A DNA stretch of 41,768 bases from Candidatus Goldiibacteriota bacterium (GTDB lineage: Bacteria; Oederibacteriota; PGYV01; DYJU01): contig CALHNI010000013.1 in the NCBI GenBank assembly GCA_938034975.1, positions 1-41,768 of the forward strand, in the 5' to 3' direction. The translations under genes were made by a program, and so were the position numbers. This document shows positions 1-39,644 of the stretch, one piece after another (positions within the stretch are counted from its first letter, which is position 1; every line of letters begins with the position of its first letter). The notes beneath the pieces are model-generated. The model did no database searches and had not been told where the DNA came from. It saw nothing but the letters and a program-made list of their open reading frames with translations.

Positions 1-120
1 CTTTTTTGTTTAATAATTTTTTATTTTTATAGCACATTACTTTAATTCACCTGTTTTTTAATTTTAAAAATAAATACACTTTTAAAATTCTTATTTGTTT
101 ATAAACCTTTTTTTATATTT
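1..120 (-). repeat. Dispersed hairpin-capped repeat, copy 1 (inverted, possibly cut by the window edge)
   Basis: Read on the minus strand, this stretch carries the family core: an A/T-rich block, then GGTGAATTAAAGTAATG and CTATAAAAATAA, matching copies at 131-275 and 39463-39644. The 3' hairpin end is not seen because the window starts here. It lies head to head with copy 2 and appears to share the hairpin at 131-158. Confidence 0.7.
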
Positions 121-130
121 TCTCTTTTCC

Positions 131-275
131 CCTGAAAAACGCTAATGCGTTTTTCAGGATAATATATATTATTTTAGAAATAAAATATTTAAAACAACAC
201 TTGATTTTTATTTTAAATAAAAAAAGTGAATAAAAGTAATGCATTATAAAAATAATAAAAAATTTTAATGACCGC
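131..275 (+). repeat. Dispersed hairpin-capped repeat, copy 2
   Basis: It opens with the perfect hairpin CCTGAAAAACGC-TAAT-GCGTTTTTCAGG (131-158, 12-bp stem, 4-nt loop). The family core follows: AAAATATTTAAAACAACACT, then GTGAATAAAAGTAATGCATT and ATAAAAATAA. The distal hairpin seen in other copies is not recognisable. The rest of the stretch before the first gene (276-331) holds only a ribosome binding site. Confidence 0.8.
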
Positions 276-331
276 AACTAATAAAATATTTAAATGTCTA
301 ATAAATTGGTGATGGAGAAAAGGAATGCCTT

Positions 332-1750
332 ATGCGTTTTATATTTTATTGTTTATTATTTTTTTTATTATATATAAACAGTTTAACAGAAAATAATTTT
401 TATCCTACTCCGAATTCTATGGTTATACCAGAGCAGGGTATAGCTGTCTTTCCTGAAAGTGAAAAGCCATTAAATTTTATTGTTTTAGGCAATGATACAA
501 GAAATTTCATTTCATTAAAAAATAATTCCTTAAAAAATAATAAAAATTATACCGATATTCAAAAAGAATTATGGATGTTATGTTTTGAATTTTTGCATGG
601 CAGAATAATAAATTCCCTGCCTCCATATACAAAGATATATCTTGCTATCACAGAAAACAAAGAGAAAATTTTTTTTACTGAGTATTTAATAAAAAGATGT
701 GGTTTTAAAAAAGAAGATATAAAAAAACGGGTAATTTTTTTTAATATTCCTTCGCCGTGCTTGTGGACACAGGATAGCGGTGAAATATCAGGTCGTTTAG
801 AAGATAATATTTATATAATAAATAATTCTGATGATTCTTATGGTTATGTATTAACAGATCTGGTCAGGCAATATTCAAAAATTTTTAAAATTAAAACAAG
901 TTCTTTATTAAGCATAGAAGGTGGTGATATAGAAATTGCATGGAATGTAAACAGAAAAGGAATCTCTGTTTTTATTGGCAGACATAGAATTATTGAATAT
1001 TTAAGAAGAAAAGAAGGAATTGATTATTCTGATAAATCTGTTTTACCGGAAAAGATAAATAACATAAAAAATTTATATAAAGAAATCTTTTTTAATTTGC
1101 CTGTTGAAGTTATTCCGGAAGAAATGCTTTTGCAACCCTCAAAGGCTGAAAACGAACTTTTTCATCTTGATATGGTTTTAACTTTTCTTACCAATGAAAA
1201 TAGAATATTTGCATTTATTCCAATTTATGAAAAAGAAGATGGAAATTTTGATATTGTTTTGAAAAAACCCCTTGATGTTTCTTTTGTAAAAAGATTAAAT
1301 ACAGAATATAATGCCGTTGCAGAACAGGTAAGAAAATTAAATTATGAGGTTGTAAGAATACCAATTTTTGATCATCCTGTAAGAAGTCCGGTAAATATAA
1401 TAAAATTTATTGATAAAGAAAGTGGCAAACAAAAGATCCTTTTTGGTAAATATCCATATTGCAATTCAAAGATGGATTTTACTGATCTACCTTATACAAG
1501 GATAGATAATGTATTTTATCTTTTAGAAAAACAATTGCGTAGATGGGAAGAAAACCCTGATTTTATAAATTATGAAAAATTTTTAACAGCTGTAAATTAT
1601 GTCTGGCAAACATTTGCTTCAGAATATTCATCTAAAAATCCGAATTTTGAAAAACAAAAGGAAATTTATGAAAAAAACGGGATTGAAGTAATAGAAGTCC
1701 CGATTTTGGATTCGGGGAGTGGAGGTTTGCATTGCACATCGCTATATTAA
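332..1750 (+). CDS. Exported peptidylarginine/agmatine deiminase-like protein
   Basis: This looks like a guanidino-group-modifying enzyme of the bacterial peptidylarginine deiminase/agmatine deiminase fold, which hydrolyses or transfers guanidino groups using a catalytic Cys. Visible landmarks are WTQDSG (145-150), SIEGGDIEI (194-202), FHLDM (277-281) and the C-terminal GGLHCTS with His467 and Cys468. These match the family's Asp/Glu, His-x-Asp and terminal Cys positions. Residues 2-18 are strongly hydrophobic, consistent with a signal peptide or membrane anchor, so it probably acts outside the cytoplasm; cytoplasmic agmatine deiminases lack this. The start is supported by GGAGAAAAGG at 314-323. 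It is monocistronic and flanked by repeats. The family is well supported; the substrate is unknown. Confidence 0.75.
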   Translation: MRFIFYCLLFFLLYINSLTENNFYPTPNSMVIPEQGIAVFPESEKPLNFIVLGNDTRNFISLKNNSLKNNKNYTDIQKELWMLCFEFLHGRIINSLPPYTKIYLAITENKEKIFFTEYLIKRCGFKKEDIKKRVIFFNIPSPCLWTQDSGEISGRLEDNIYIINNSDDSYGYVLTDLVRQYSKIFKIKTSSLLSIEGGDIEIAWNVNRKGISVFIGRHRIIEYLRRKEGIDYSDKSVLPEKINNIKNLYKEIFFNLPVEVIPEEMLLQPSKAENELFHLDMVLTFLTNENRIFAFIPIYEKEDGNFDIVLKKPLDVSFVKRLNTEYNAVAEQVRKLNYEVVRIPIFDHPVRSPVNIIKFIDKESGKQKILFGKYPYCNSKMDFTDLPYTRIDNVFYLLEKQLRRWEENPDFINYEKFLTAVNYVWQTFASEYSSKNPNFEKQKEIYEKNGIEVIEVPILDSGSGGLHCTSLY

Positions 1751-1765
1751 ACTATTAATATATAA

Positions 1766-1951
1766 CCTGAAAATCACAATAATAGAAAATTGCGATTTTC
1801 AAGATAAAAAAATATTATTAAACAAATTAAATTTTCAAAATAACATATATTTTATTTTAAATTAAAAACCGGATGAATAAAAGCAATGAAATAAAAACTA
1901 TAAAAAAATTTTGTTTTTTGTAAAAACGTGTTTTTGAGCGTGTTTTGACGG
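1766..1951 (+). repeat. Dispersed hairpin-capped repeat, copy 3
   Basis: The 5' hairpin runs from CCTGAAAATCACAAT to ATTGCGATTTTCAAG (1766-1802). The core GGATGAATAAAAGCAATG lies near 1870-1890, and the 3' hairpin GTAAAAACG...CGTGTTTTGACGG ends at 1951. It fills most of the 339-bp gap between convergent genes and could act as a bidirectional terminator. The remainder, about 1960-2060, is slightly GC-richer and unassigned. Confidence 0.8.
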
Positions 1952-2089
1952 TAATATTTAACAAAGTAGTTTTCCTGCTGCGTTAGTTAGGGCCTAAGAC
2001 ACCAAAAAGTCCGCCTTTTTTTATTGAAAGCGAAACTGCACATTTAAAGCATTTGTTTTATGTATATTAAAAAACCTTTTATATAAGTT

Positions 2090-3016
2090 TTATAAAGTTT
2101 TTTTATTTTGATTTATAAGCCCGATGTTATATTTTTTTATTAATTTAAAGGGATGATATGAAAGTTTTGCACGTCTTAATCCTTCATCACCGGTATCCTG
2201 TTGTCTATTTATATATTTATATTCAATTAAAAATTTTTCTGCAAATAAATTATTTATAGCCTGATATATACCGGTATATTCAGGATTTGCTTTTTCTACA
2301 ATAATTTCTACGGTTTGCTTGTTTAATTCAGAAGCAATTGTATATGCTTCTATTTTTTTATTTATTTTAATTACAGCGCCGAAAGCCGGGAGATGAGAAA
2401 AATTTTTTAAAATTTCAAGGACAGCGCTATTTTCATTTGTCAATGATAAATCATTATTACAATTCCTTATCTCGCACCATTTTTTTTGAAATTCAATGCA
2501 TTCTGATACAGAATCAAAAGTCAATTCTGAAAATTCAAAGTTGTAGTTTTTAATAAATTTTTTTAATTGGTTTCTTTTGCTATCATATTTTCTGCCAGCG
2601 AGTTTTACTAAATCATTGCAAAGATAAAGATAATCATAGTTATCCCGATCGTCTTCTAAAAAAAGTTCATCAGTTATATTTTTTATTAAATCAAGTTTTT
2701 CATCAGGAAAAGCATTTACTTTTATGCTTTCAATATTGGATTTAAAATAATACAAAATTTCTTTTACTATTTTTTCTGTTTCTTTGCCAAAAGGCGGATA
2801 AAAATATTTTTGCCCTTTTTTTTCTAAAAAAAAGATTAAATTGTTTTTATAATTAGATATTGAAATTTTTCTCAGGTTTCTCCAGGCAAACATTTCAACG
2901 AAGTTTAATTCGGAAATACATGGTTGAATTTTTTTAAGATAATCAAGAATTAAATCCTTATGTTTTAAATCAATAATTTCTGTTTCGGGAAACTGAGGAA
3001 TTTTTATATAATTCAT
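2090..3016 (-). CDS. DUF2156 / LPG-synthase C-terminal-domain protein
   Basis: A soluble 308-residue protein of the DUF2156 family (GNAT-like fold related to the C-terminal aminoacyl-transfer domain of phosphatidylglycerol lysyltransferase). Characteristic pieces are LAGRKYDSKRNQLKKF (about 139-154) and the C-terminal NRQQDTGDEGLRRAKLSYHP (about 269-288). It lacks the membrane part of MprF, so it matches the stand-alone cytosolic form whose substrate is generally not known. A good promoter lies so close to the ATG that the message seems leaderless, and no Shine-Dalgarno precedes the start. It is transcribed alone, divergently from aroQ. Confidence 0.8.
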   Translation of the reverse strand: MNYIKIPQFPETEIIDLKHKDLILDYLKKIQPCISELNFVEMFAWRNLRKISISNYKNNLIFFLEKKGQKYFYPPFGKETEKIVKEILYYFKSNIESIKVNAFPDEKLDLIKNITDELFLEDDRDNYDYLYLCNDLVKLAGRKYDSKRNQLKKFIKNYNFEFSELTFDSVSECIEFQKKWCEIRNCNNDLSLTNENSAVLEILKNFSHLPAFGAVIKINKKIEAYTIASELNKQTVEIIVEKANPEYTGIYQAINNLFAEKFLIEYKYINRQQDTGDEGLRRAKLSYHPFKLIKKYNIGLINQNKKTL

Positions 3017-3025
3017 AGTTCTTTG

Positions 3026-3053
3026 ATTATAATAAAAGGATAAAAAAAGTCAA
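3026..3053 (-). promoter_or_regulatory. Promoter of the DUF2156 gene
   Basis: On the minus strand: TTGACT (3053-3048), 16-bp spacer, TATAAT (3031-3026). The expected transcription start is near 3019, about 3 nt before the ATG at 3016, implying a leaderless mRNA. Confidence 0.7.
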
Positions 3054-3116
3054 CGAAAACTAAACAACCTTAAAAATGCATTTTCCAATGCTTTTTTTCA
3101 CGGGACATAAATTATA

Positions 3117-3144
3117 TTGAAAAGATAAGAGTTTTTGATATACT
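3117..3144 (+). promoter_or_regulatory. Promoter of the aroQ operon
   Basis: TTGAAA (3117-3122), 16-bp spacer, TATACT (3139-3144). The leader is about 36 nt and ends in a strong GGAAGGAG site at 3171-3178, 8 nt before the aroQ ATG. Confidence 0.65.
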
Positions 3145-3186
3145 TTTGAATAAAACCTTTTTATTTATAAGGAAGGAGTTTTTGTT

Positions 3187-3621
3187 ATGAAAAAAATACT
3201 TATCATACATGGACCTAATCTTAACCTTTTAGGGCAAAGAGAACCAGGCATTTATGGGAATGCAGATCTTAAGGAGATAAATGATAATTTACAGGCAATG
3301 GCAAAAACTTTGGGAGTTGAAATAAAGATTGTGCAGAGCAATCACGAAGGTGAAATAGTTGAAGTTATACAACAGGCAATGAGCTGGGCTGAATGCATAA
3401 TTATAAATCCAGCAGCTTATACACATACTTCTGTAGCAATCCGAGATGCTATAGCAGCAGTTAAAATACCCACCATAGAAGTTCATTTAAGTAATATTTA
3501 CAGCAGAGAAGATTTCAGACAGAAATCTTTTATTGCTCCTGTTTCAGTAGGAAGTATCAATGGTTTCGGAGAGTTGAGTTATTATCTGGCATTAGAAGCT
3601 GCAGCTAAAATGAAAAAATGA
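3187..3621 (+). CDS. aroQ: Type II 3-dehydroquinate dehydratase
   Basis: This enzyme catalyses the third step of the shikimate pathway, dehydrating 3-dehydroquinate to 3-dehydroshikimate in the cytoplasm. At 144 residues it has the usual type II length. The N-terminal [17 protein letters not shown] (8-24) contains the catalytic Tyr23 and the lid Arg18. Asn75 and His80 (NPAAYTH), the IEVHLSN segment with Glu98 and His100, and Arg111 are all in place. It is the first gene of an operon whose other members are surface-polysaccharide membrane proteins, and its stop overlaps the next start as ATGA. In Bacillus the equivalent gene (yqhS) sits beside the pepP-efp block, which here lies 26 kb away. 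Confidence 0.95.
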
Positions 3622-12835: not shown

Positions 12836-12879
12836 ATTTCTCTCCTAAAAAATCATAAATGGTCCCAAACTCACAATAA

Positions 12880-13000
12880 AAATATTTTTTAACAACTTAA
12901 ATTTAAAAAAACATTTATGTTTTATTTTTTCAAATAAACAGGCGAACAAAAGTAATAAATTTTAAAAATTTTTTCTTAAAACACGTTTTTAACCCGTTTT
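12880..13000 (+). repeat. Dispersed hairpin-capped repeat, copy 4 (degenerate)
   Basis: A decayed copy. The A/T block is followed by CAGGCGAACAAAAGTAATAA, matching the family core, and then by AAAACACG...CCCGTTTT, a remnant of the 3' hairpin. The 5' CCTGAAAA hairpin is missing. It occupies the gap between the divergent MEMO and queH genes. Confidence 0.55.
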
Positions 13001-16442: not shown

Positions 16443-17165
16443 TTATAATGGTTTTTGTATAATATTTTTATATGCTCTTGGATAAACATCATTTGTTTTC
16501 CACATCTTTTTCACAATTATTAAACTTCTTTTACCTGTGTTTTCTGGTAATTCATATCTATAAATATCTAATATTTTAAATCCAAGAATTTGTTGTATAC
16601 TTTTATTCTTTAATATTATTTTTTCCTGATTTGGGCTTGCATAATATACACAATAACCACCAATTCTTATTAATGGAATTATAATTTCCATGGATATATT
16701 AAATGGGTTAAAGGCTTTTACCAAAGAACAATCAAATTTTTCTCTGTATTCAATTTTTTTTGATAATGATTCAGCTCTTGCATTGATTATTTCTATGTTA
16801 TCTAGTTTTAAAATATTTTTTATATTTATTAAAAATTGACATTTTTTTTTAATTGAATCAACAAGAAAAAATTTTTTATTAGTTAAATAAATTGCGTTTG
16901 GTATTCCTGGAAAACCAGCACCAGAACCAATATCTAATATTGTTTCGCATTGTGAAATAATGTTTGTCTTAATAAAATATAAAGAATCAATAAAAAGTTT
17001 AATTATAATGTCTTTATCAAATTTTAAACCAATTAAGTTGAATTTCTGATTCCAGCGTTTTAATTCAATAAAAAAATTATAAAATTTAGAAACATAAATT
17101 TCATCCAAAATATTTTTACAATCCAAATACTGTAAATATTTTAAAAATAAATTTTTAATTTCCAT
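16443..17165 (-). CDS. rsmG: 16S rRNA (guanine-527-N7)-methyltransferase
   Basis: RsmG (GidB) methylates G527 of 16S rRNA using S-adenosylmethionine. The 240-residue protein has LKRWNQKFNLIG (35-46), the SAM site ILDIGSGAGFPGIP (76-89), a VDS motif at the end of the next strand, and NARAE. It ends with the typical YPRAYKNIIQKPL tail. AAGG precedes the ATG at 17165. It is upstream of recF on the same strand; the pair brackets the parS-like sites. Origin-proximal location of gidB and parS is common in bacteria. Confidence 0.93.
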   Translation of the reverse strand: MEIKNLFLKYLQYLDCKNILDEIYVSKFYNFFIELKRWNQKFNLIGLKFDKDIIIKLFIDSLYFIKTNIISQCETILDIGSGAGFPGIPNAIYLTNKKFFLVDSIKKKCQFLINIKNILKLDNIEIINARAESLSKKIEYREKFDCSLVKAFNPFNISMEIIIPLIRIGGYCVYYASPNQEKIILKNKSIQQILGFKILDIYRYELPENTGKRSLIIVKKMWKTNDVYPRAYKNIIQKPL

Positions 17166-17241
17166 TCCATTCCTTAATTATAAAATTTCAGGTTTTAAAA
17201 TTATAATTGATATGATAAAATAAATCAAATAAAATATATTA

Positions 17242-17444
17242 CCTGAAGATCAATAAAAAAATGCAATTATCAGGAGTAATAATAAAAGAAAAATATTATT
17301 AAAGAAATAAAATACTTAAAACAATACTTGACCTTTATTTCAAATTAAAAAATGGGTGAGCCAAAGTGATGCATTATAAAAATAAAAATTTATTGAATAA
17401 AAAAACAAAAAATTTCGTTTTTCCGTAAAAATACATTTTTACGG
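17242..17444 (+). repeat. Dispersed hairpin-capped repeat, copy 5
   Basis: A full-length copy of about 203 bp. The 5' hairpin runs CCTGAAGATCAAT...ATGCAATTATCAGG. The core is GGTGAGCCAAAGTGATGCAT followed by TATAAAAATAA. The 3' hairpin CCGTAAAAAT-AC-ATTTTTACGG (17423-17444) has a perfect 10-bp inverted repeat. It occupies part of the 580-bp gap between rsmG and the lipoprotein gene. Confidence 0.85.
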
Positions 17445-17467
17445 TATTAAATAAATAAAATAGATAA

Positions 17468-17717
17468 TGTGAAAAGTTCTATGAGAAAGAAAGAAGGCAG
17501 AGATTAAAATATATACTAAAAGATTGAAAATAATATACATTTTCCCCTCTTTAATAAAGAGGGGTTAGGGGAGATTTTAAATTAAAAGAGGTTGAGAAAA
17601 AGAAAATGGATGGAAGCAAATCCCCCTAAATCCCCCTTTGATAAAGAAGGAACAAAAAGTAACAGAAGTATATGAATAAAAGTATTTTTAAGTGAAAAGG
17701 ATAAAAAACTTTTTACA
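17468..17717 (+). mobile_element. MITE-like element with TGTGAAAAGTT inverted ends, copy 1 (short form)
   Basis: A 250-bp element from TGTGAAAAGTT (17468-17478) to AACTTTTTACA (17707-17717, one mismatch in the inverted end). Inside are CCCCTCTTTAATAAAGAGGGG, a palindrome followed by TTAGGGGAGATTTT, and a C-rich block AATCCCCCTAAATCCCCC. It lacks the middle segment of the 418-bp copies. No transposase is encoded and no clear target duplication is visible. It ends 28 nt before the lipoprotein ATG. Confidence 0.7.
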
Positions 17718-18781: not shown

Positions 18782-19543
18782 ATGGAATTTGAAATTGCGG
18801 GGAAAAAACTAAAATCAAGATTATTTATTGGCACAGGCAAATTGCCAACTTACAAAGTAATCCCTGAGATTATAAAAAAAACAGGAGTTGAAGTATTAAC
18901 AGTTGCTGTTCGTAGAATAAATCCTGAGGCAAAAATAGAAAATATACTTGACTATATCCCTGATAATATAACAATCATGGTGAATACTTCCGGGGCAAGA
19001 AATGCAGAAGAAGCAATAAAAATTGCAAAAGCAGGAAGTGAAATCATCGGGACCAAATGGATAAAAATTGAAATTGAAGCAGATACAAGATATTTAGCCC
19101 CTGATAATGAAGAAACAGTAAAAGCAACAGAAATTCTTGTAAAACAAGGGTTTTTTGTTTTTCCTTATATAACTCCGGATTTAATTACAGCAAAAAAACT
19201 TGAAAAATCTGGTGCAGCAGCAGTTATGCCACTTGGCTCTTTTATTGGGACAAACAAAGGAATAACATGTAAGACATTGTTAAGACCAATTATTGAAGAA
19301 GTAAATATACCGGTTATAATTGATGCTGGCATAGGGAGACCTTCTCATGCCGCAGAAGCAATGGAATTAGGAGCAGATGCAGTTTTAGTAAATACAGCAA
19401 TAGCAATCGCAAAAAACCCTGTTAACATGGCTATTGCAATTGATATGGCAGTTAAAGCAGGAAGATTGGCTTTTGAAAATGGTATTTTAGCAGAAAGAGA
19501 ATATGCAGAACCATCATCACCACTTACTGATTTTTTAAAATAG
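18782..19543 (+). CDS. thiG: Thiazole synthase ThiG
   Basis: ThiG condenses deoxyxylulose 5-phosphate, dehydroglycine and ThiS-bound sulfur into the thiazole phosphate. The 253-residue TIM-barrel protein shows SRLFIGTGKLP (12-22), the Schiff-base lysine in TKWIKIEIE (Lys95), AAAVMPLGSFIG and the phosphate-binding VIIDAGIGRPSHAAEAMELGAD segment. AATGGAG precedes the ATG. It sits 48 nt after thiS. Confidence 0.95.
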   Translation: MEFEIAGKKLKSRLFIGTGKLPTYKVIPEIIKKTGVEVLTVAVRRINPEAKIENILDYIPDNITIMVNTSGARNAEEAIKIAKAGSEIIGTKWIKIEIEADTRYLAPDNEETVKATEILVKQGFFVFPYITPDLITAKKLEKSGAAAVMPLGSFIGTNKGITCKTLLRPIIEEVNIPVIIDAGIGRPSHAAEAMELGADAVLVNTAIAIAKNPVNMAIAIDMAVKAGRLAFENGILAEREYAEPSSPLTDFLK

Positions 19544-21906: not shown

Positions 21907-23556
21907 CTACCAAGATTTTGTTTTTTTCGGCTTTTGACCAGATTTAAAAATTTTCTGGAAAAAATTTAATTTGGGAGTTGGAGTTGGTGTTGGTGTAAAA
22001 GTTGGTTCTGCTGTTGGTGTTTCTGTCGGTGTCAAAGTTGGTTGTTCTATTTTTATATTTAACTCTGATTTATCAAGAATAATAATTATTTCGGCACGCC
22101 TGTTTTTATATTTATTTTCTTCAGAATCATTGGGAACTATAGGTTTTGTTTCGGCATAACCTTTTGTTAAAATTCTATTAGTGGCAATGCCATGTTTTTT
22201 ATGTAAATATTTTTTTACTTCTTTTGCCCTAGCAATTGATAGTTCAAGGTTTGAAGGGAACTGTTTGGTTTTTATCGGGTCATTATCAGTGTGTCCTTCT
22301 ATTTTTATAGATGATTTTTTGAATTTTTTTATAATTTTTACCATATCGTCAAGCACAGGATAAAATTCAGGTTTTATATCAGCATAAGCACTGTCAAAAT
22401 GAATAACTGGATAAAAAAGCAGTATGTTATCTTTTCTTATAACAGATACTTTTAATTCTTCATAAGAAGGTTTTATAACTTCTGTAATTTGGGGAACAGG
22501 TGTCTCATAAACAGGAGGAGTTAAATCATAAGGCAAAGTTGGTTGTTCAACAGCGCTTTCTTCCAAATCTATTATTTTATCCAGGGCTTCTTCTTTTTTT
22601 ACGGGTTTTTCTATGACCGGGGTTGATGTTGGTAAAGGTTCTGCGAGTATTCTTGAAAGGAAAGAAGGGCATACACCGCCTGATGTTGTGATTTTTACTT
22701 TTTCACTGCCATCTAAATTCATAATCCATATTTCGGGCTGAAATTTATCTGTTACAGAACTTGTAAAAAGTATTTTTCTGTCATCATAGGCAAAACAAGG
22801 AGAAAAACTTTTTCCATCATAGGTTAATTGTTTTTCGGATTTTGTATTTAAATCATAAAGATGTATATTAACATTTCCTTCTTCAATTACTGTATAAAGT
22901 ATTTTTTTCCCGTCTTTTGAAAAGCAACAACTGCCGGATTTTTTATTTATATAATTTGTAATTTTTATGTCCTGTTTGTCAAAAAGGGTTCGCATATAAA
23001 TGTTATAGGTAGATTCGTTTTCTATTTTGGCATATACAAATTTATTTTCAAAAGATAAAGAAGGTGCAAAACTATCATTATCTTCAGTAAGGGCAATCTG
23101 ATTATATCCATCAATATCAATTTTCCAGATATTTTTAAATCTGGAGTAAATTATAAATTTTAATTCTTTATCCCATGAAGGAGCATTGCCTATATTAAAA
23201 TTATTCACATCAGCATCAATGGGCGCTTTATCATAGGTTATCTGATTTGTTTTGTTATATTTAAGGTCTCCAATCCATAAATTATATTCATTTCCGGAAT
23301 TTACCCAGTAAGCGATATACCAGCCATCAGGTGATGCAGAAGGAAACCATTTGCTTTGGTTATCAGCAAATAATTCCTGTTTGCCAGTGCCATCTGAGTT
23401 GATCCAGTAAAGATGGCCATTGAATGTATAAACAATTTTTTCAAACTTTGGGACAGGAGTGCTGGTAGGAGTAGGTGTTGGTTTAGGGGGTTCGGCTTTT
23501 TTTGCGCAATTTATTATTAATAATAAAACCAGAAAAAATAGATTAATTTTTTTCAT
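21907..23556 (-). CDS. TolB-like beta-propeller lipoprotein with C-terminal OmpA domain
   Basis: A 549-residue envelope protein. A hydrophobic signal ends in LIINC, a lipobox-like site with an unusual Asn before the Cys. A Pro/Thr-rich linker (PTPTPTSTPVP) follows, then a TolB-like propeller (about 35-300) built from repeats such as ADNQSKWFPSASPDGWYIAYW. Next is a second linker and an OmpA/Pal-type peptidoglycan-binding domain (about 385-500) with IEGHTDNDPI, SIARAKEVKKYL and KNRRAEIII. It ends in another Thr/Pro-rich tail (TPTPTPTPK). It resembles TolB and Pal joined in one chain. It overlaps the upstream propeller gene by 14 nt. The domain calls are firm; the role in envelope integrity is inferred. 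Confidence 0.87.
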   Translation of the reverse strand: MKKINLFFLVLLLIINCAKKAEPPKPTPTPTSTPVPKFEKIVYTFNGHLYWINSDGTGKQELFADNQSKWFPSASPDGWYIAYWVNSGNEYNLWIGDLKYNKTNQITYDKAPIDADVNNFNIGNAPSWDKELKFIIYSRFKNIWKIDIDGYNQIALTEDNDSFAPSLSFENKFVYAKIENESTYNIYMRTLFDKQDIKITNYINKKSGSCCFSKDGKKILYTVIEEGNVNIHLYDLNTKSEKQLTYDGKSFSPCFAYDDRKILFTSSVTDKFQPEIWIMNLDGSEKVKITTSGGVCPSFLSRILAEPLPTSTPVIEKPVKKEEALDKIIDLEESAVEQPTLPYDLTPPVYETPVPQITEVIKPSYEELKVSVIRKDNILLFYPVIHFDSAYADIKPEFYPVLDDMVKIIKKFKKSSIKIEGHTDNDPIKTKQFPSNLELSIARAKEVKKYLHKKHGIATNRILTKGYAETKPIVPNDSEENKYKNRRAEIIIILDKSELNIKIEQPTLTPTETPTAEPTFTPTPTPTPKLNFFQKIFKSGQKPKKTKSW

Positions 23557-24610
23557 CTACTTCACCGGTCTTTTTATTCTTTGCTGGATTTTTTATTTTA
23601 ATTTCAGCGCATAAAGGAAAATATGCCTTAAAATGATAGGTCAACTGCTTTTTTTCCTGGGTCTGTATGTTTAATTTATATATATCATTATTTTCAACAA
23701 AAAAGATTGTGTTTAAATCCTTATACCAGAAAGGACTGTTTCCTTTTGTTTTTGTGATTTGTTTTAAATTATTACCATTTTGATCAGCGATAAATATATT
23801 AGGGCCATCTTTTTCATCTGATATAAAAGCAACGAATCCATTTATATTGCCAGGCGAACTCCAAGATATATCATTAAAAGGATAGTAAGTTTGTTTAATT
23901 TTTTTTCTATCGGTTCCGTTAAAAAAGCAGGAAATTATATCAGTATTGTTAAATAAAACTATCCTGTCATTTGTTATCCAGTCAAAAGCAGGGTATATAA
24001 TTAAACTTTTTTCAATCTGAACAGGATTTCTTCCATCATATAACATAATCCATAAGCCATTATGATTTTTTGTTTTTTCTCTTGAATACAAAATTTTTGA
24101 TTTATCAGGGGATAGTTTAAACATGGTGATATCATGAGTTGAAGTTAAGGCAAAAGGGTTATTGCCTTCCAGATCTGTCTGCCATATATCATCATTTAAA
24201 ATAAATAATAAATAATCGCCGTCTTTTAGCCATCCTATTTTTCCGCGGTTATACAGGTCTATTTTATTTTTGGGATTTTCTTCAAAAGTAAGTTGTTTTA
24301 AATTTCTTCCTTCTGGATCCATAACCCAAAGGTTTGCAGCGCCGCTTCTGTCAGAGAAAAAAGCAATTAAATCACCTTTTGGTGATACAGAGGGACACCA
24401 GTTGTTTCCTTCTTTTGTTAAGATTAATTTATTTTCCCCGTTTAAGTCCATTGAAGCAATCTGAAAGAAATTTCTACTATCTTCAAAAACATAAAAAATT
24501 TTCTCTTTATAAATAAAATCATCATCTGATTGATTTTGTGCAGATACATTTAAAAGAATAAAATATAAAATTATTAAGAAAAAACATAGTTTTCTTATAA
24601 TTATTGACAT
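23543..24610 (-). CDS. Exported TolB-like beta-propeller protein
   Basis: A 355-residue protein with a signal peptide (about 1-24, ending at VSA-QNQ) and a WD40-like (PD40) propeller. Its blades contain typical strings such as CPSVSPKGDLIAFFSDRSG, NLWVMDPEGRNLKQLTF, MFKLSPDKSKILYSRE and NIFIADQNGNNLKQIT. It lacks the OmpA domain of the next gene, with which it overlaps by 14 nt. The pair looks like a duplicated propeller in one operon. A periplasmic role akin to TolB is inferred; no tolA, tolQ or tolR is visible here. Confidence 0.83.
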   Translation of the reverse strand: MSIIIRKLCFFLIILYFILLNVSAQNQSDDDFIYKEKIFYVFEDSRNFFQIASMDLNGENKLILTKEGNNWCPSVSPKGDLIAFFSDRSGAANLWVMDPEGRNLKQLTFEENPKNKIDLYNRGKIGWLKDGDYLLFILNDDIWQTDLEGNNPFALTSTHDITMFKLSPDKSKILYSREKTKNHNGLWIMLYDGRNPVQIEKSLIIYPAFDWITNDRIVLFNNTDIISCFFNGTDRKKIKQTYYPFNDISWSSPGNINGFVAFISDEKDGPNIFIADQNGNNLKQITKTKGNSPFWYKDLNTIFFVENNDIYKLNIQTQEKKQLTYHFKAYFPLCAEIKIKNPAKNKKTGEVDEKN

Positions 24611-24637: not shown

Positions 24638-24666
24638 ATAATATAAGGTTTTTTTATTAAAGTCAA
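24638..24666 (-). promoter_or_regulatory. Promoter of the two TolB-like genes
   Basis: On the minus strand: TTGACT (24666-24661), 17-bp spacer, TATTAT (24643-24638). It lies about 28 nt before the ATG at 24610, with AGAGGT just upstream of the start. Confidence 0.65.
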
Positions 24667-24681: not shown

Positions 24682-24857
24682 CCTGAAAATTGCAATAAAA
24701 ATTGCAATTATTAAAATAAAAAATATGAAAAAAATATTATTAAAAAAACTTATATTTAAGAACTGGTAAACAAAATAATGCATCATAAAATAAATAATAT
24801 GAATAAAAATATTTTATTTTTCCACAAAAACGTGCCTACTAATAATGCGTTTTTATG
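24682..24857 (+). repeat. Dispersed hairpin-capped repeat, copy 6
   Basis: The 5' hairpin is CCTGAAAATTGCAAT...ATTGCAATT. A weaker core has CAAAATAATGCATCATAAAATAA. A 3' hairpin CACAAAAACG...CGTTTTTATG ends near 24857. It lies between the TolB-like operon promoter and tRNA-Gln. The remaining 60 bp up to the tRNA show nothing further. Confidence 0.75.
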
Positions 24858-24915
24858 AATAAGATTAAAAAGACAAAAAAATAATATTTTTAGGAGATAA
24901 AAAAATAAAAATTTC

Positions 24916-26909: not shown

Positions 26910-27087
26910 CCTGAAAATCGCAAAGAAAAATACGATTTTCATTAGAAAAAAGTAAAAATAAATTTTAAAACAATACTTATTTTTTATTAAAAAACCAGTG
27001 GATAAAAGTAAAGTATTATAATAATAAATAAAAAGGCAAAAAAATTTTTATTTTTCCGTAAAAACGAATTTCCTGATGTTTTTACGG
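26910..27087 (+). repeat. Dispersed hairpin-capped repeat, copy 7
   Basis: The 5' hairpin is CCTGAAAATCGCAAA...TACGATTTTCA (26910-26941). The core GTGGATAAAAGTAAAGTATT is followed by ATAATAATAA. A clear 3' hairpin CCGTAAAAACG...GTTTTTACGG lies at 27056-27087. It ends 23 bp before the GT2 start and fills most of this 327-bp gap. Any promoter for the long downstream operon must lie within or beside it. Confidence 0.85.
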
Positions 27088-34031: not shown

Positions 34032-34254
34032 AATTTTAAGATTCATATTTTTAAATATAGGGAAAGTTGTTGGAGTAATACTTGGATTACTTATTGCATT
34101 TTTTCTTTTGGTATTTGGATTGCTTAAAACACTTTTTATAGCAGCATTTATTATTCTTGGTTTTATTCTTGGAAAATGGCATGATGAAGGTATTTCATTA
34201 AAAAAATTAGTGAGAGAATTTTTAAATGCCCTGAAAATAGAAAAATGGCAATAA
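34024..34254 (+). CDS. DUF2273 small membrane protein
   Basis: A 76-residue protein with two hydrophobic helices, starting from the ATG at 34024 after AAAGGTGAAG; a longer in-frame start lies within amaP. The pattern IGKVVGVILGLLIAFFLLVFGLLKTLFIAAFIILGFILGKWHDEG is that of DUF2273, usually encoded beside asp23 and amaP. It overlaps amaP by 8 nt and thiD2 by 10 nt. The function is unknown, but the genomic partnership suggests one complex with AmaP and Asp23. Confidence 0.87.
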   Translation: MNEILRFIFLNIGKVVGVILGLLIAFFLLVFGLLKTLFIAAFIILGFILGKWHDEGISLKKLVREFLNALKIEKWQ

Positions 34255-34664
34255 AATTTGAAAAAGTTTTTTTCAGGATATTAGATGCCAATGCCAACAG
34301 ATTAAAAGAAGGTTTAAGGGTTATAGAAGATATAGCAAGGTTTATTAAAGAAAGTAAAAAGTTAACAGGGGAAATAAAAAAAGCAAGGCATGATGTTACA
34401 TTTTATATAAGTCAACTTTCACCGGATTATAAAAAGCAACTCAAATCAAGGGAAAGTAAAAATGATATTGGAAGAAAAACATATTCAAAAAGTGAATATG
34501 AAAGAAAAGATTTACAGGAAATTTTAATATCCAATTTTAAAAGAGTTCAGGAATCTTTGCGTGTATTAGAAGAAATTTCAAAAATAAAAAATACAAAAGT
34601 TGCAAAAAGTTTTAAAAATTTAAGGTTTAAAATATACGATCTGGAAAAAAAATTTATTATATAG
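34245..34664 (+). CDS. thiD2: ThiD2-type HMP-phosphate kinase
   Basis: A 139-residue helical protein matching the ThiD2 domain, a phosphomethylpyrimidine kinase unrelated to ThiD that is sometimes fused to ThiE. The characteristic pattern is RILDANANRLKEGLRVIEDI (11-30), then KKARHDV, SRESKNDIGRKTYSKSEYER, and a second similar helix NFKRVQESLRVLEEISKI. It ends with LRFKIYDLEKKF. It would convert HMP-P to HMP-PP, the step between ThiC and ThiE, and lies 309 bp upstream of thiC. It is the last gene of the efp-acc run and overlaps DUF2273 by 10 nt. No classical ThiD is visible. Confidence 0.85.
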   Translation: MAIKFEKVFFRILDANANRLKEGLRVIEDIARFIKESKKLTGEIKKARHDVTFYISQLSPDYKKQLKSRESKNDIGRKTYSKSEYERKDLQEILISNFKRVQESLRVLEEISKIKNTKVAKSFKNLRFKIYDLEKKFII

Positions 34665-34699
34665 CCTTAAAAAATAAAATAAATATTTTTTTACACCTT

Positions 34700-34904
34700 C
34701 TGTAAAAGCGCGTTAAAACAAGCGTTTTTACGGAAAAACAAAATTTTTTTATTATTTTTATAATACATTTCTTTTATTCTCTCATTTTTTAATTTAAAAT
34801 ATAGATCAAGTTTTTGTTAAACATTTTATTTATTTTTTTAAATAATATATTATTTTTGTGTTTTTTTCTTCTGAAAATCGCAATTTTATATTATGATTTT
34901 CAGG
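34700..34904 (-). repeat. Dispersed hairpin-capped repeat, copy 8 (inverted)
   Basis: A full-length copy of about 205 bp on the minus strand. The 5' hairpin (34904-34871) has a near-perfect CCTGAAAATC...GATTTTCAG stem. The core reads ATGAGAGAATAAAAGAAATG followed by TATTATAAAAATAA. The 3' hairpin CCGTAAAAACGC...GCGCTTTTACAG is at 34733-34700. It fills the 308-bp gap between thiD2 and thiC and may separate their transcripts. Confidence 0.85.
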
Positions 34905-34917
34905 ATGTTTTTACGGG

Positions 34918-34946
34918 TTGAAATCCTGCTTAAAAAAAAGTATAAT
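34918..34946 (+). promoter_or_regulatory. Promoter of thiC
   Basis: TTGAAA (34918-34923), 17-bp spacer, TATAAT (34941-34946). With a start near 34953 and the ATG at 34973 the leader is about 20 nt, holding only GAGGAG (34961-34966). There is no space for a TPP riboswitch. Confidence 0.75.
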
Positions 34947-34972
34947 GTTTAAAAATGTGCGAGGAGAAAAAA

Positions 34973-36259
34973 ATGACACAACTTGAAGCAGCTAAAAAAG
35001 GCATAATTACAGATGAAATGAAAATTGCTGCAAAAGAAGAAAATCTGACAGTAAAGGAATTATCAGAACTTATTGCAAGGGGAGAAGTTATAATTATAAA
35101 AAATAAAATACACAACAATATAAAAATAATAGCAATTGGGAAAAAAACAAGAACCAAAATAAATGCAAATATAGGTAGCTCAGAAGATATATGCGATATA
35201 GATCTTGAATTACAAAAATTAAAAATCTGTGTTGATTTCGGTGCTGATGCAGTTATGGATTTATCAACAGGCGGGGATATAAAAAAAATAAGGCAAATGA
35301 TTTTAAAGAATTCACCAATACCGGTCGGGACTGTGCCTGTATATGAAACTATGGTAAATACATTAAAAAATAAACGCCCAATTGATGAATTAACAAGTGA
35401 TGATTTTTTTAACATTATCAAGGAACATGCAGAACAAGGGGTTGATTTTGTTACGGTTCATTGTGGAGTAAATAAAAAAGCAGTGGAAACTTTAATTGCA
35501 CAAGGCAGAATATTAGATGTTGTAAGCAGAGGCGGTGCTTTTTTGACTTCATATATAATTAAAACAAATAAAGAAAATCCATTGTTTAAAGATTTTGACA
35601 GGTTATTAGAAATTGCTTATGAATATGATATTACTTTATCATTAGGTGATGGAATGCGGCCTGGTTGTATTGCTGATGCAACAGATAAACCACAGATACA
35701 GGAACTCATAACATTAGGCGAACTTGCCAAACGTGCTTATGAAAAAAATGTGCAGGTAATGATAGAAGGTCCTGGTCATATTCCCATAAATCAGATTGAA
35801 ACAAATATTAAAATGCAAAAACAACTCTGTAATAATGCCCCTTTTTATGTTTTGGGTCCGATTGTTACTGACATAGCCCCAGGTTATGATCATATAACTT
35901 CGGCAATAGGAGGAGCACTAGCAGGTTATTATGGGGCTGATTTTTTATGTTATGTAACCCCTGCAGAACACTTAAAATTACCAGACCTAAATGAAGTAAA
36001 AGAAGGCATAATTGCTGCCAAAATTGCTGCTCATTCAGCAGATATTGCAAAAGGAATTCCATTTGCAGTTAACCTTGATAATGAAATGGCAAAAGCAAGG
36101 AAAAATTTAGATTGGGAAAAGCAGATAAACTTGGCAATTGATAAAGAAAAAGCAAGGATTATGAGGGAAAAAGCCAGTCCATCCAACAAGGATGTTTGCA
36201 CCATGTGTGGAGAATTTTGTTCAATTAAAGAATTAAAAGATATTTTAAAAAAGATGTGA
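34973..36259 (+). CDS. thiC: Phosphomethylpyrimidine synthase ThiC
   Basis: ThiC is a non-canonical radical SAM enzyme that rearranges aminoimidazole ribotide to HMP-P. I use the ATG at 34973, 6 nt after GAGGAG; an in-frame ATG 18 nt upstream lacks a site. The 428-residue protein is of the short type without the N-terminal domain of E. coli ThiC. It has GADAVMDLSTGGDI, FVTVHCGV, SRGGAF, LGDGMRPG and IEGPGHIP. The C-terminal cluster motif is CTMCGEFCS, spaced CX2CX3C instead of the CX2CX4C of E. coli. Its TGA stop lies within the terminal repeat of the adjacent element. Confidence 0.95.
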   Translation: MTQLEAAKKGIITDEMKIAAKEENLTVKELSELIARGEVIIIKNKIHNNIKIIAIGKKTRTKINANIGSSEDICDIDLELQKLKICVDFGADAVMDLSTGGDIKKIRQMILKNSPIPVGTVPVYETMVNTLKNKRPIDELTSDDFFNIIKEHAEQGVDFVTVHCGVNKKAVETLIAQGRILDVVSRGGAFLTSYIIKTNKENPLFKDFDRLLEIAYEYDITLSLGDGMRPGCIADATDKPQIQELITLGELAKRAYEKNVQVMIEGPGHIPINQIETNIKMQKQLCNNAPFYVLGPIVTDIAPGYDHITSAIGGALAGYYGADFLCYVTPAEHLKLPDLNEVKEGIIAAKIAAHSADIAKGIPFAVNLDNEMAKARKNLDWEKQINLAIDKEKARIMREKASPSNKDVCTMCGEFCSIKELKDILKKM

Positions 36260-36672
36260 AAAGTTCTATGAAAAAAAAAGAAGGCAGAGATTAAAATATA
36301 TACTAAAAGTATAGAAAATAATATACATTTCCCCTATTTTAAAAAAGGGCAGGGGAGATTTAAAAATAATGAACCAAATCCCCCAGAAATCTCCTTTTTA
36401 CAAATGGGTAGAAAAAAAGAAAGAGGAGGAAAATCGTTCTTAGTCCTCCTTTTGCAAAGGGGGAGAAAAAAATAAGAATAAGAATAAGAATAAGAATAAA
36501 AAATTCCACTCTTTAATAAAGAGTGGTTAGGTGAGATTTTAAAAGAAAGCGAGAAAAAGAGAATGAATGTATGTAAATCCGCCTAAATCCCCTTTGATAA
36601 AGGGGGAACAAAAGGCAAAAAAAGTATATGAATAAAAAAATTTTTAAGTGAAGAGCGTTAAAACTTTTCACA
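36255..36672 (+). mobile_element. MITE-like element with TGTGAAAAGTT inverted ends, copy 2 (418 bp)
   Basis: It runs from TGTGAAAAGTT (36255-36265) to AACTTTTCACA (36662-36672), an 11-bp perfect terminal inverted repeat. Inside are two related C/G-rich palindromic units and a short (AAGAAT)n tract near 36474-36500. There is no ORF for a transposase. Its left end supplies the thiC stop codon and its right end lies 29 nt before the next ATG. It fills the 442-bp gap. Confidence 0.8.
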
Positions 36673-36701
36673 ATACTTTAAAAAAGTAAAGGAGGTATGT
36701 C

Positions 36702-37115
36702 ATGGATAAAATTTTAAAAATAATCCTTTCAGGAGTTGTTGCGGGATTTATTTTGTTTTTTGTTGCAAGTATTTCATATAATTTTACCAAAGAGATAACA
36801 GACCCATCACTTAAATACATTTTTAAGAAATCAATTCATATGCAGTGGTTTTATAAACTTTTAATAATAAACGCAGGAACAGGTATTATCATGGCTATAT
36901 TTTATGCTTTAATGCGTTCAGGATTACCCGGAAATGATTTTATAAAAGGAGCGACATGGGGAATGGTAGTATGGATTTTTATGATAAATCAGCCGCTTAT
37001 AACAGCAATTGTTATTGGTGATTTTGCTCCAAATTTACTTTTATCATGGCTTGCCCAGGGATTTGCAAGTTATGTAGCGGCCGGAGCAAGCATTGGGCTT
37101 ATTTACAAGGACTGA
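36702..37115 (+). CDS. Four-helix membrane protein of unknown function
   Basis: A 137-residue, very hydrophobic protein with about four transmembrane helices (roughly 5-25, 50-70, 83-100 and 112-133). Between helices 2 and 3 is a small loop RSGLPGNDFIKGATWGMVVW, reminiscent of small integral membrane proteins of the DUF1761/DUF1440 sort, though I do not claim either. AAAGGAGG precedes the ATG. It begins 29 nt after the right end of a MITE-like element and overlaps the UbiA-like gene by 23 nt, so translation is probably coupled. Confidence 0.7.
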   Translation: MDKILKIILSGVVAGFILFFVASISYNFTKEITDPSLKYIFKKSIHMQWFYKLLIINAGTGIIMAIFYALMRSGLPGNDFIKGATWGMVVWIFMINQPLITAIVIGDFAPNLLLSWLAQGFASYVAAGASIGLIYKD

Positions 37116-37938
37116 AGTTTTAACTTTAATCAGAACCTTACGTTTTTCCCGTCATTTGCACTATACAGTTGTTTTTTTATTTGGATATTATTTAGGATTA
37201 GAAAAACTTAAAAACAATTTTGATATTTTTTATTTTTGGGCAGGTATAATTTGGATAAACATACTTTTTTTCCTTTCTATTATTTTAAATAACATTTATG
37301 ATAAAAAAATAGACCTGATAAACAAAAAGGTGAATCCGTTAAACAACGGAATAAAGATAAAAAAATATTTTTATCTTTATGTTTTTTTGCTTTTTTTCTC
37401 TTTGATTTTATCATTTTTTTTGAGTAAAAAAATTTTTTATCTTACGGTTTTCATAAATTTAATAAGTTATTTTTATTCAGTGCCGCCTTTCAGACTTAAA
37501 AAGTTTTTTCCTTTGAATATAATCATTATAAGTTTTTGCACAACAATTACAATTTTTTCAGGTTATTTGTTTTCAACACATGGAAAAAGTTATAGTGAGT
37601 TCCCTTTTGATTTTGCTTTATCATTGTTTTTTATTTTATCTTTTGCTTTTAATGTAAAAGATATAAATGATTTTAAAGGTGATAAAAAACAAAAAATAAT
37701 GACTATAATGACAATTTTTGGAGAAAAAAAAGGGAAAATGATTATAAACTTTCTTATGCTTTTTTCGTATATTTTTTTTCCTTTTTTAATTGGTCAGCCT
37801 TTGCTTTTTTTGCCTGCGGTTTTTTGCGGTGTTATAACATTTTTAATAATTCATAAGTCGCACAGGATAAATGAAATTCCGGTTTTTTTAATATTTTTTT
37901 CTTTTCTTTTTTTATATATACTGATACAAAAAATTTAA
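37093..37938 (+). CDS. UbiA-superfamily prenyltransferase
   Basis: A 281-residue integral membrane enzyme that attaches a polyprenyl chain to an aromatic or other acceptor. The two aspartate motifs are visible: NNIYDKKID (66-74, Asp70 and Asp74) and KDINDFKGD (189-197, Asp190, Asp193, Asp197). YSVPPFRLKK (128-137) after the middle helices is typical. The start is a TTG with GGAG at 37083-37086; it overlaps the upstream gene by 23 nt. The acceptor is unclear: quinone, heme or lipid acceptors are all possible, and no quinone genes are nearby. Confidence 0.85.
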   Translation: MGLFTRTEVLTLIRTLRFSRHLHYTVVFLFGYYLGLEKLKNNFDIFYFWAGIIWINILFFLSIILNNIYDKKIDLINKKVNPLNNGIKIKKYFYLYVFLLFFSLILSFFLSKKIFYLTVFINLISYFYSVPPFRLKKFFPLNIIIISFCTTITIFSGYLFSTHGKSYSEFPFDFALSLFFILSFAFNVKDINDFKGDKKQKIMTIMTIFGEKKGKMIINFLMLFSYIFFPFLIGQPLLFLPAVFCGVITFLIIHKSHRINEIPVFLIFFSFLFLYILIQKI

Positions 37939-37942
37939 AAAT

Positions 37943-38311
37943 ATGAAAATAAAAAATATTCTTTTTATTATAGGAGGGCATATTTTTTTGGTAATTGGAA
38001 TAGCAGGTATTTTTTTGCCTGTGCTTCCCGGAACAATTTTTTTAATTTTATCCGCAGCTTGTTATTTTCGCGGTTCAGAAAAATTTTATAACTGGCTTTT
38101 AAACCATAAATTTTTAGGCAAATATGTAAAACCATACAGAGAAGGCAAGGGAGTCCCTTTTAAATTAAAAATTTCTTCACTTGGTATATTATGGGTGGGG
38201 ATAAGTATTTCTGCATACTTATTTAAAGAAAATATTATAATTTTAATCATCCTTGGTGTAATTTTAATTGTAAGCACGGTTTATTTGATAAAATTAAAAA
38301 CACTAAAATAA
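37943..38311 (+). CDS. DUF454 (YbaN-like) inner membrane protein
   Basis: A 122-residue membrane protein of the DUF454 family, of unknown function. Typical are GIAGIFLPVLPGTIFLILSAACYFRGSEKFYNWLL (about 19-53) and HKFLGKYVKPYREGKGVPFKLK, followed by two more helices. It starts 4 nt after the UbiA-like gene and is the last gene of the three-gene block bounded by two 418-bp repeats. Confidence 0.87.
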   Translation: MKIKNILFIIGGHIFLVIGIAGIFLPVLPGTIFLILSAACYFRGSEKFYNWLLNHKFLGKYVKPYREGKGVPFKLKISSLGILWVGISISAYLFKENIIILIILGVILIVSTVYLIKLKTLK

Positions 38312-38406
38312 AAAATTAAGTAAAAAAATATTAAATAAAATAAACAAAAAATTAATAAAAAATAAATTTATATCTAATAATATTCTTTTAAATTTTATAA
38401 TGGTAA

Positions 38407-38824
38407 TGTGAAAAGTTCTATGAAAAAAAAAGAAGGCAGAGATTAAAATATATACTAAAAGTATAGAAAATAATATACATTTCTCCTCTTTTAAAAAAAG
38501 GGGCAGAGGCGATTTAAAAATAATGAATCAAATCCCCTGTAAATCCCATTTTTACAAATGGGTAGAAAAAAAGAAAGAGGAGGAAAATCGCCCTTAGTCT
38601 CCCTTTTGCAAAGGGGGAGAAAAAAAATAAGAATAAGAATAAAAAATTCCTCTCTTTAATAAAGAAGGGTTAGGGGAGATTAAAAAAAAAAGCGAGAAAA
38701 AGAGAATGGATGTATGTAAATCCGCCTAAATCCCCTTTTGATAAAGGGGGAATAAAAGGCAACATAAGTACATAAGCATATGAATAAAAGGATTTTTAAG
38801 TAAAAAGCGTTAAAACTTTTCACA
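38407..38824 (+). mobile_element. MITE-like element with TGTGAAAAGTT inverted ends, copy 3 (418 bp)
   Basis: Same length, orientation and internal order as copy 2: TGTGAAAAGTT (38407-38417) to AACTTTTCACA (38814-38824), with closely similar sequence throughout. The AAGAAT tract is shorter. The right end is 29 nt before the response-regulator ATG, with TATAAT at 38832-38837. The rest of this 542-bp gap (38312-38406) is featureless A/T. Confidence 0.8.
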
Positions 38825-38831
38825 CTGCCTT

Positions 38832-38837
38832 TATAAT
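38832..38837 (+). promoter_or_regulatory. Possible -10 element next to MITE copy 3
   Basis: TATAAT 7 bp beyond the element, with TTAAAA (38810-38815, inside the element) at 16-bp spacing as a poor -35. If real, the element contributes the -35 of the response-regulator promoter. Confidence 0.4.
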
Positions 38838-38853
38838 AGAAAGGAGGAATGAT

Positions 38854-39240
38854 ATGTCTAAAATTATATTTTTTGTAGATGATGAAAAAGATGTAAGAGA
38901 ATTAATAGAAGTTAATTTGAAAAATTATGGGTTTAAGGCATATGGGTTTGAAAATTCACTAAAAATGTTAGAAATGTTATCAAAAACAAAACCGGATTTA
39001 ATAATTCTTGACGTGATGATGCCAAAAATGGATGGTTTGGAAACCAGTAGAATATTAAAAAATAATCCAGAAACAAAAGATATTCCTATATTGCTTTTAA
39101 CGGTAAAAGGAAGTATAGATGATATAGAAAGTGGATTTAAGGCAGGAGTTAATTCGTATATGATAAAACCATTTTCACCTTCAAGATTGATTGAAAAAGT
39201 AAAAGAGTTAATAAACAAAAAAACTAAAAATAAAATCTGA
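38854..39240 (+). CDS. Single-domain CheY-like response regulator
   Basis: A 128-residue receiver domain with no output domain. The acidic pocket is Asp9, Asp10 and Glu11, the phospho-acceptor is Asp53 (LIILDVMMPKMDG), the switch Thr is Thr83 and the conserved Lys is Lys105 (MIKPF). Such proteins pass phosphate or act by protein contact. No histidine kinase adjoins it; a membrane sensor begins at 41496, beyond uvrC. GAAAGGAGG precedes the ATG. Confidence 0.92.
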   Translation: MSKIIFFVDDEKDVRELIEVNLKNYGFKAYGFENSLKMLEMLSKTKPDLIILDVMMPKMDGLETSRILKNNPETKDIPILLLTVKGSIDDIESGFKAGVNSYMIKPFSPSRLIEKVKELINKKTKNKI

Positions 39241-39462
39241 TTGTAAAATAAGAATAATTTGCAAAATTTTTATATTAAAAGTAAAAGATTTAATAATTTA
39301 TAACAATATAATTCGTCCATACTATTTAAGTAGAAATCTTTTCTTAAAAAATCTGATTGCATGTTAAAAATTTTAAAAATTATCTGAAACATCCAGTCCA
39401 TTTTTGTTCATCAGTTTGTTTAAAAATTATGACTTAAAAATTGCAGAATTTTTATATTTATT

Positions 39463-39644
39463 CCTGAAAATCGTATTAAAAGATTGCGACTTTCAGGAGA
39501 AAAAACACAAAAATAATATATTATTAAAAAAAAATAAAATATTTAAAACAACACTTGATCTTTATTTTAAATTAAAAAGACTGATGAATAAAAGTAATGT
39601 ATTATAAAAATAAAATTTATCACATTTAAAACGAGTTTTAACGG
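39463..39644 (+). repeat. Dispersed hairpin-capped repeat, copy 9
   Basis: The 5' hairpin is CCTGAAAATCG...CGACTTTCAGG (39463-39497). It is followed by AAAATATTTAAAACAACACT, the same 20 bases as in copy 2, and the core CTGATGAATAAAAGTAATG plus TATTATAAAAATAA. The 3' hairpin is degenerate (AAAACGAGTTTTAACGG). The rest of this 480-bp gap, 39241-39462, shows no gene or clear structure. Confidence 0.85.

Follow-up and report, generated by a model that had tools for sequence, protein, structure and literature searches.

Short repeats with IS1380-like palindromic ends beside predicted promoters in a Candidatus Goldiibacteriota genome

Repeat copies in the window and in the genome

The window analysed here, with a G+C content of 26%, is a stretch of 41,768 nucleotides from a Candidatus Goldiibacteriota bacterium, namely contig C13 of the genome assembly G000 (1.93 Mb, 66 contigs, 84% complete). 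It carries copies of a repeat unit of about 200 bp, which holds no transposase gene and reaches a high copy number. The original prediction described nine intergenic copies sharing one layout, with a hairpin near each end, and proposed a search of the genome for more. A profile was built from seven window copies and iterated once, and the genome counts below cover 1.66 of the 1.93 Mb of G000 (86%). The profile matches all nine places (E 1.4e-9 to 8.6e-35), and there are many more members than these: it gives 239 non-redundant matches, 131 of them full length, which scales up to about 280 per genome. The seven-copy profile before iteration had already given 71 matches in the first 442 kb. The family occupies 18% of the non-coding DNA in the part covered, and the full copies are intergenic except for just 10 of 117 that overlap an open reading frame (ORF) by more than 60 nt. 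These 117 copies are the basis of the counts of duplications and of promoters per copy, while the end counts use 178 3' ends and 170 5' ends (348 in total). For comparison we used the sister species G001 (median protein identity to G000 74%; 488 kb covered) and G018, a member of another family within the same phylum, which is represented by 45 genomes.

The family falls into two subfamilies according to the 5' hairpin, A (CCTGAAAATCGC...GCGATTTTCAGG) and B (CCTGAAAAACGCATTAGCGTTTTTCAGG). The copies in the window, the target site duplications (TSDs) that flank two of them and the predicted promoters beside them are as follows.

1-158, minus strand: B-subfamily copy with its 3' part cut by the contig start, 5' terminal hairpin at 131-158, B-type spacer GGTTTATAAACAAATAAG (E 4.9e-28)
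159-270, plus strand: what is left of an A-subfamily copy that the B copy apparently interrupts, with no 3' hairpin; the A-type spacer begins directly after the B hairpin and the left part falls off the contig (E 1.1e-21)
1766-1951, plus strand: full copy, ends read, 15 nt past the stop codon of ORF 332-1750, no adjoining promoter (E 4.2e-29)
12873-13000, plus strand: partial decayed copy without 5' hairpin (E 1.4e-9, profile 55-224)
17200-17228, minus strand: TTGATT-17-TATAAT, predicted as the promoter of gidB/rsmG (16443-17165, minus); the 5' end of the next copy is 13 nt away
17242-17444, plus strand: full copy, TSD TATTA at 17237-17241 and 17445-17449 (E 5.2e-34)
24638-24666, minus strand: TTGACT-17-TATTAT, predicted as the promoter of a TolB/PD40-like gene (23543-24610, minus); the 5' end of the next copy is 15 nt away
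24682-24858, plus strand: full but decayed copy (E 5.7e-15)
26910-27087, plus strand: full copy, whose 5' side has no more than a weak promoter match (E 2.5e-26)
34699-34904, minus strand: full copy, 5' end toward thiC (E 8.6e-35)
34918-34946, plus strand: TTGAAA-17-TATAAT, predicted as the promoter of thiC (34955-36259); the 5' end of the preceding copy is 13 nt away
39463-39644, plus strand: full copy, TSD TTATT at 39458-39462 and 39645-39649 (E 6.8e-33)
39658-39686, plus strand: TTGACA-17-TATAAT, predicted as the promoter of uvrC (39721-41499); the 3' end of the preceding copy is 13 nt away

The common layout holds in full in the six copies listed as full; the 5' hairpin is absent from 12873-13000 and the 3' hairpin from 159-270. 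The stem AAAAACGC/GCGTTTTT, which had been cited as a compensatory change in the second copy, is not compensatory, because a B copy was apparently inserted in an A copy there and the hairpin at 131-158 is part of the B copy.

Termini, target duplications and relation to IS1380

Base composition shows sharp conservation between the CC opening the 5' hairpin and the GG closing the 3' hairpin; outside it is near background, and the boundaries of the element are the outer ends of the two hairpins. These ends are imperfect inverted repeats (CCnnAAAAnCGCATTAGAA), and each is also a palindrome. When read inward, the 5' end is CCTGAAAATCGCATTAGAAG, that is, CCTGAAAA(T/A)CGCATTAGAA, and the 3' end is CCGTAAAAACGCATTAGAAA; the hairpins are thus terminal and the repeats inverted, where the first description had subterminal hairpins without terminal inverted repeats. 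An identical 5-mer flanks 27 of the full copies (1.4 expected) and an identical 6-mer 14 of them (0.5 expected), and no comparable excess was found at lengths 2, 3, 4, 7 and 8. Copies are present in both orientations, and B copies are nested in A copies. We found a B copy within an A copy with the duplication TTCAA (C18:4400-4800), a nested insertion within an A hairpin with TCGCA (C31:19480-19910) and another within an A core with TAAAA (C15:16030-16530). Tandem and head-to-head runs also occur (G000:C16:5201-7028, C10:2-512 and C5:30416-30721), some of whose copies share one palindromic end, and these may be insertions at or beside an existing copy.

The family was not found in the 488 kb of G001. 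Comparison of intergenic lengths alone gave too few empty sites, and a promoter-by-promoter comparison succeeded: the element at G000 C14:18180 lies between TAAAA repeats, and the orthologous G001 site is the uninterrupted AATTTAAAAAATAAAACAATG, which is the kind of empty site that the original prediction proposed to look for in related genomes. Its view of a small non-autonomous mobile element is borne out by the sharp ends, the TSDs of 5-6 bp and the nested insertions.

Its choice of class fared differently. Elements of the IS200/IS605 type, moved by a TnpA Y1 transposase, resemble the repeats in their hairpins at both ends and intergenic position, and the likeness in hairpins extends to REP/RAYT elements. 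Both of these have a Y1 transposase, subterminal hairpins and no target duplications; IS200/IS605 elements make none. In G000, PF01797 has 0 matches, and no fixed tetranucleotide flanks the ends of the repeats. Since the Y1 transposase is absent, the hairpins are terminal and duplications are present, we reject this class as next to impossible.

The termini point instead to the IS1380 family of insertion sequences (IS). An intact IS1380-family transposase occurs in G001 (locus L139, ORF 1075-2391, NF033539 at 2.9e-85). As a query, it finds a decayed near-complete IS1380 copy in G000 C55 (51% identity), and C-terminal fragments lie in C36, C51, C53, C64 and C65, with the right end present in some. 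These relics are seen only with such a close protein query, and Pfam DDE_Tnp_1 gave just a 57-aa relic. The G000 IS1380 ends are CCTTAACTCCGCAATAGAAAG (left) and CCTAAAATCGCGATAGAAAC (right). With at most 4 mismatches, the right-end probe hits 30 places in the 1.66 Mb, of which 24 start exactly at inward-reading repeat termini. For the IS end probes overall, exact starts at a terminus make up 24/30, 76/105 and 35/91 matches, while shuffled probes hit 0-7 places each and 0 at a terminus. The left-end probe of the G001 element reaches 46 repeat termini at six mismatches. There is also a chimera at G000 C5:32886-33206, in which the 5' end of the repeat is followed by an IS1380 left end, with TATTAA flanking both sides.

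We assign the repeats, as a miniature inverted-repeat transposable element (MITE), to the IS1380 type because their termini match the ends of IS1380 copies in the same genome and their TSDs are 5-6 bp. Judging from these sequences, an IS1380-type transposase could move the MITE in trans. The known members ISEcp1, ISSsu5, IS1678 and IS1247 likewise have short inverted repeats with ends beginning CC(T), and duplications of 5-6 bp that are mostly AT-rich (TTATGA, TTATAT, GATAG, TTGGA and TATAA, measured here); a direct repeat of 5 bp is published for IS1247 (PMC3281130). The MITE differs in being 200 bp without a transposase and in that each of its inverted repeats is itself palindromic. IS1380 relatives of this subgroup were found neither in IMG/VR nor, above about 25% identity, in phages. 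The terminal hairpin pattern gave five unrelated chance matches across the GTDB genomes of other species and none in IMG/VR, and a search for an autonomous version, as paired half-copies around a gene, returned none that was convincing.

Position relative to predicted promoters

It was found that the ends of the MITE lie at a fixed distance from predicted promoters. Outward of the 3' end, TTGACA (at least 5/6) occurs at 13, 14, 15 and 16 nt in 29, 16, 5 and 2 of the 178 ends (52 in total), and outward of the 5' end, on the other strand, in 12, 7, 4 and 1 of the 170 (24 in total). At every other position up to 39 nt it occurs at 0-3 ends only. TATAAT then follows at a spacing of 16-17, and the downstream gene is co-directional in 66/73 cases. 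When counted per copy, 65 of the 117 (56%) lie next to a promoter that scores 9/12 or better, the -35 being at 13-15 nt and the -10 at +36 from the end. The promoter is faced by the 3' end only in 40 copies and by the 5' end only in 18 (p 0.005). Among near-consensus promoters (11/12), 29 of 108 such genes have an element at the fixed distance, and the cases in the window are uvrC, thiC, gidB and the TolB-like gene. The distance varies with the duplication: with a TSD of 5 bp the -35 is mostly at 13, and with one of 6 bp mostly at 14 (Fisher 0.005), and therefore the cut on the promoter side is fixed 8 bp from the -35.

The promoters are not brought by the element. In G001 the orthologous promoters are present without it, for example those for C5:94145, C17:28881, the tRNA-Leu promoter C9:2980, C19:10386 and C1:60469, and hence they predate the insertions. 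Two of these G001 promoters have their own upstream repeat or IS end. An unrelated 340-bp MITE of G001 shows no promoter peak (133 ends), and therefore the pattern does not come from AT-rich intergenic DNA or from the purging of harmful insertions. This G001 family (GTAATAGTTTAGCCACTGG..., e.g. L176:10616-10954) is abundant and has no promoter offset.

IS1380 elements themselves are placed 13-14 nt from predicted promoters in three genomes of the phylum (G000, G001 and G018). Both G001 left ends (C24 and C14, 2/2) have a promoter at 14 nt, TTGACA-17-TATAAT at one and TTGACT-17-TATAAT at the other, the latter being orthologous to the promoter at C17:28881. In G000, the end in C65 is 14 nt from TTGACA-16-TATAAT, that in C64 is 14 nt from TTGAAA ahead of a gatC-like gene, and that in C55 is 13 nt from TTGACA. 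The G018 element (C142), whose intact transposase is 50% identical, has the duplication TAAGA and lies 13 nt from TTGAAA-17-TATAAT.

From these results we conclude, with a probability of roughly 0.86, that the repeats form a MITE family which descends from, or has adapted to, an IS of the IS1380 family and inserts upstream of promoters. Several points weigh against this conclusion. We deduce the mobilising enzyme from decayed copies and from the likeness of the IS and MITE ends, which are similar and not identical, and no intact IS1380 transposase was found in the 84%-complete G000 assembly. Assemblies of this kind often lose multi-copy IS, and several G000 contigs terminate within these repeats. 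The promoters are sequence predictions, in about 44% of the full copies no promoter can be recognised at the fixed distance, whether because it is lost or weak or the copy is nested, and some G000 IS1380 ends (C36, C64b and C49) have no clear promoter. Furthermore, no targeting was seen for IS1380s of Enterococcus, Carnobacterium, Tetragenococcus, Ligilactobacillus, Listeria, Vagococcus and enterobacterial plasmids (16 loci, with fewer independent sites since several share an insertion site). The MITE thus differs in this habit from the plasmid-borne IS1380s examined, and because these Firmicute and enterobacterial copies do not target promoters, targeting is at most a trait of an IS1380 subgroup.

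A different account of the position would be that the element is a structured cis-regulatory RNA, or a bidirectional terminator or insulator unit, retained upstream of promoters by selection. Its stem-loops with A/T tracts at both ends, its place between genes and its presence at 29/108 of the strongest promoters would fit this, and the stems had been said to stay paired under selection for structure. We compared pairing over 170 and 178 copies with column shuffles. Among the stem pairs, the eight outer ones show little or no pairing above the shuffles, while the inner ones (9-12 at the 5' end and 10-12 at the 3' end) exceed them, most strongly where A and B differ, so that the excess largely tracks the subfamilies. 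The outer pairs are not maintained by selection after insertion, and for this reason the palindromic end is more likely to be of use to the transposase than to an RNA. No Rfam match was found in the window. In view of the mobility shown by nested insertions and TSDs, the decay of the outer pairs to shuffle level, the occurrence of the element in both orientations and the fact that the sister species keeps these promoters but lacks the element, we regard the RNA or terminator account as improbable. A secondary effect of the element on transcription may nevertheless exist.

Target recognition and comparison with known systems

For the IS1380-type MITE, we propose that a DDE transposase of this type would bind the palindromic CCnnAAAAnCGCATTAG ends, and that the integration complex would either be held at the upstream edge of the RNA polymerase holoenzyme or read the promoter DNA directly. 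In standard promoter numbering, the first base beyond the element would lie at about -48 and the duplication at -48 to -44, which corresponds to the upstream edge of the polymerase-sigma complex. A cut there would spare the promoter and allow repeated landing in a safe, open site near genes. The unequal ends would bias the 3' end toward the promoter, and this asymmetry may explain the orientation bias.

In the version with direct reading, the transposase that moves the same MITE would recognise the -35 sequence (TTGAC) as DNA, and not the polymerase-bound promoter. Two observations favour this: in the joint table the -35 varies less in position than the -10, and the right end of the C55 IS1380 lies 14 nt from a TTGACG in apparent coding sequence with no good -10. 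Against it, a -10 is present at 39/49 element-adjacent TTGAC sites compared to 66/151 other intergenic TTGAC sites (Fisher 1.3e-5), and since targeted sites more often have a -10, the whole promoter is the target. In addition, TATAAT (5/6) alone peaks at +36 (62/348 ends, mostly 5-25 elsewhere), and a perfect TATAAT at 36±1 nt occurs at 40/348 ends compared to 1-10 at control positions. Among these 40 ends, 18 have a weak -35, while control positions give 0-7 such weak cases. The orientation of the downstream genes also agrees with promoters. We therefore infer docking on promoter-bound RNA polymerase in preference to reading of promoter DNA, because the -10 contributes independently; recognition of TTGAC as DNA is doubtful, though it deserves more weight than the other alternatives.

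Insertion upstream of sigma-A promoters is known for TnGBS, ISLre2 and ISKra4, with TnGBS at 15-17 bp from the -35 and duplications of 8-9 bp, and the orientation bias of TnGBS and ISLre2 is attributed to unequal inverted repeats (PMC3942029). The MITE shares with them the fixed distance upstream of sigma-A promoters and the orientation bias accompanying unequal inverted repeats, and the distance from the centre of the duplication to the -35 is about equal (roughly 10.5-12 bp). They differ in the transposase family, in the duplication (5-6 bp in the MITE) and in the distance to the -35 (13-15 in the MITE). That the repeats are a MITE of such a Mutator-like p-MULT element would accommodate the promoter targeting, the orientation bias and the terminal C (PMC3942029). 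These differences in duplication and distance, the absence of UPF0236 (PF06782) from G000 and the match of the repeat ends to IS1380 make it very improbable. The sole IS with Transposase_mut (PF00872) in G000 has other ends, GGGTAATGT/ACATTACC. This IS256-family element (L155, G000:C5:33366-34700) has an intact-looking transposase and is inserted in a copy of the repeat family. As mobilising enzymes in G000, Y1_Tnp, rve, UPF0236 and Transposase_mut (the one IS with other ends) were all rejected.

Like other bacterial MITEs, the Correia elements of Neisseria are short and non-autonomous, with many intergenic copies near gene starts (PMC10969869), and our family resembles them in this. Correia elements bring their own promoters, whereas the family described here lands beside existing ones. 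The bcr1 repeats of the Bacillus cereus group are also short folded mobile repeats with 5-bp duplications, and we know of no promoter spacing for them.

A literature search, with most subscription journals outside its coverage, found no report of promoter targeting by IS1380 or of IS1380-derived MITEs. As far as we found, promoter-upstream targeting by bacterial transposons has been published for Mutator-like elements only, and to our knowledge the habit is new for IS1380. A second, unrelated lineage with near-equal geometry (the centre of the cut about 11 bp upstream of the -35) suggests a common solution, in which elements land safely at the edge of RNA polymerase; the yeast Ty3 uses the Pol III machinery for safe landing. 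On balance we lean slightly towards the wider view that an IS1380 transposase subgroup, unrelated to the Mutator-like transposases, independently evolved integration at the upstream edge of promoter-bound RNA polymerase, and that the MITE, at about 280 sites in one host and about a quarter of its strongest promoters, keeps a long-term evolutionary record of which promoters are used and may tune these promoters or insulate them. More than 200 natural insertions measured to the base provide a quantitative, testable rule, which could aid promoter prediction in an uncultured phylum. The result also bears on IS1380 biology at large. ISEcp1, a member of the family that moves resistance genes, showed no targeting in the few cases examined.

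Apart from the MITE, the thiamin genes thiG, thiD2 and thiC are dispersed in the window (18782-19543, 34245-34664 and 34955-36259), and a repeat copy lies at the thiC promoter. Another repeat family, unrelated to the first and about 430 bp long, with palindromes of the CCCCTCTTTAATAAAGAGGGG type and about 20 copies in the genome, lies at 17465-17712, 36252-36716 and 38404-38868 of the window, just upstream of the ORFs at 17692, 36702 and 38854.

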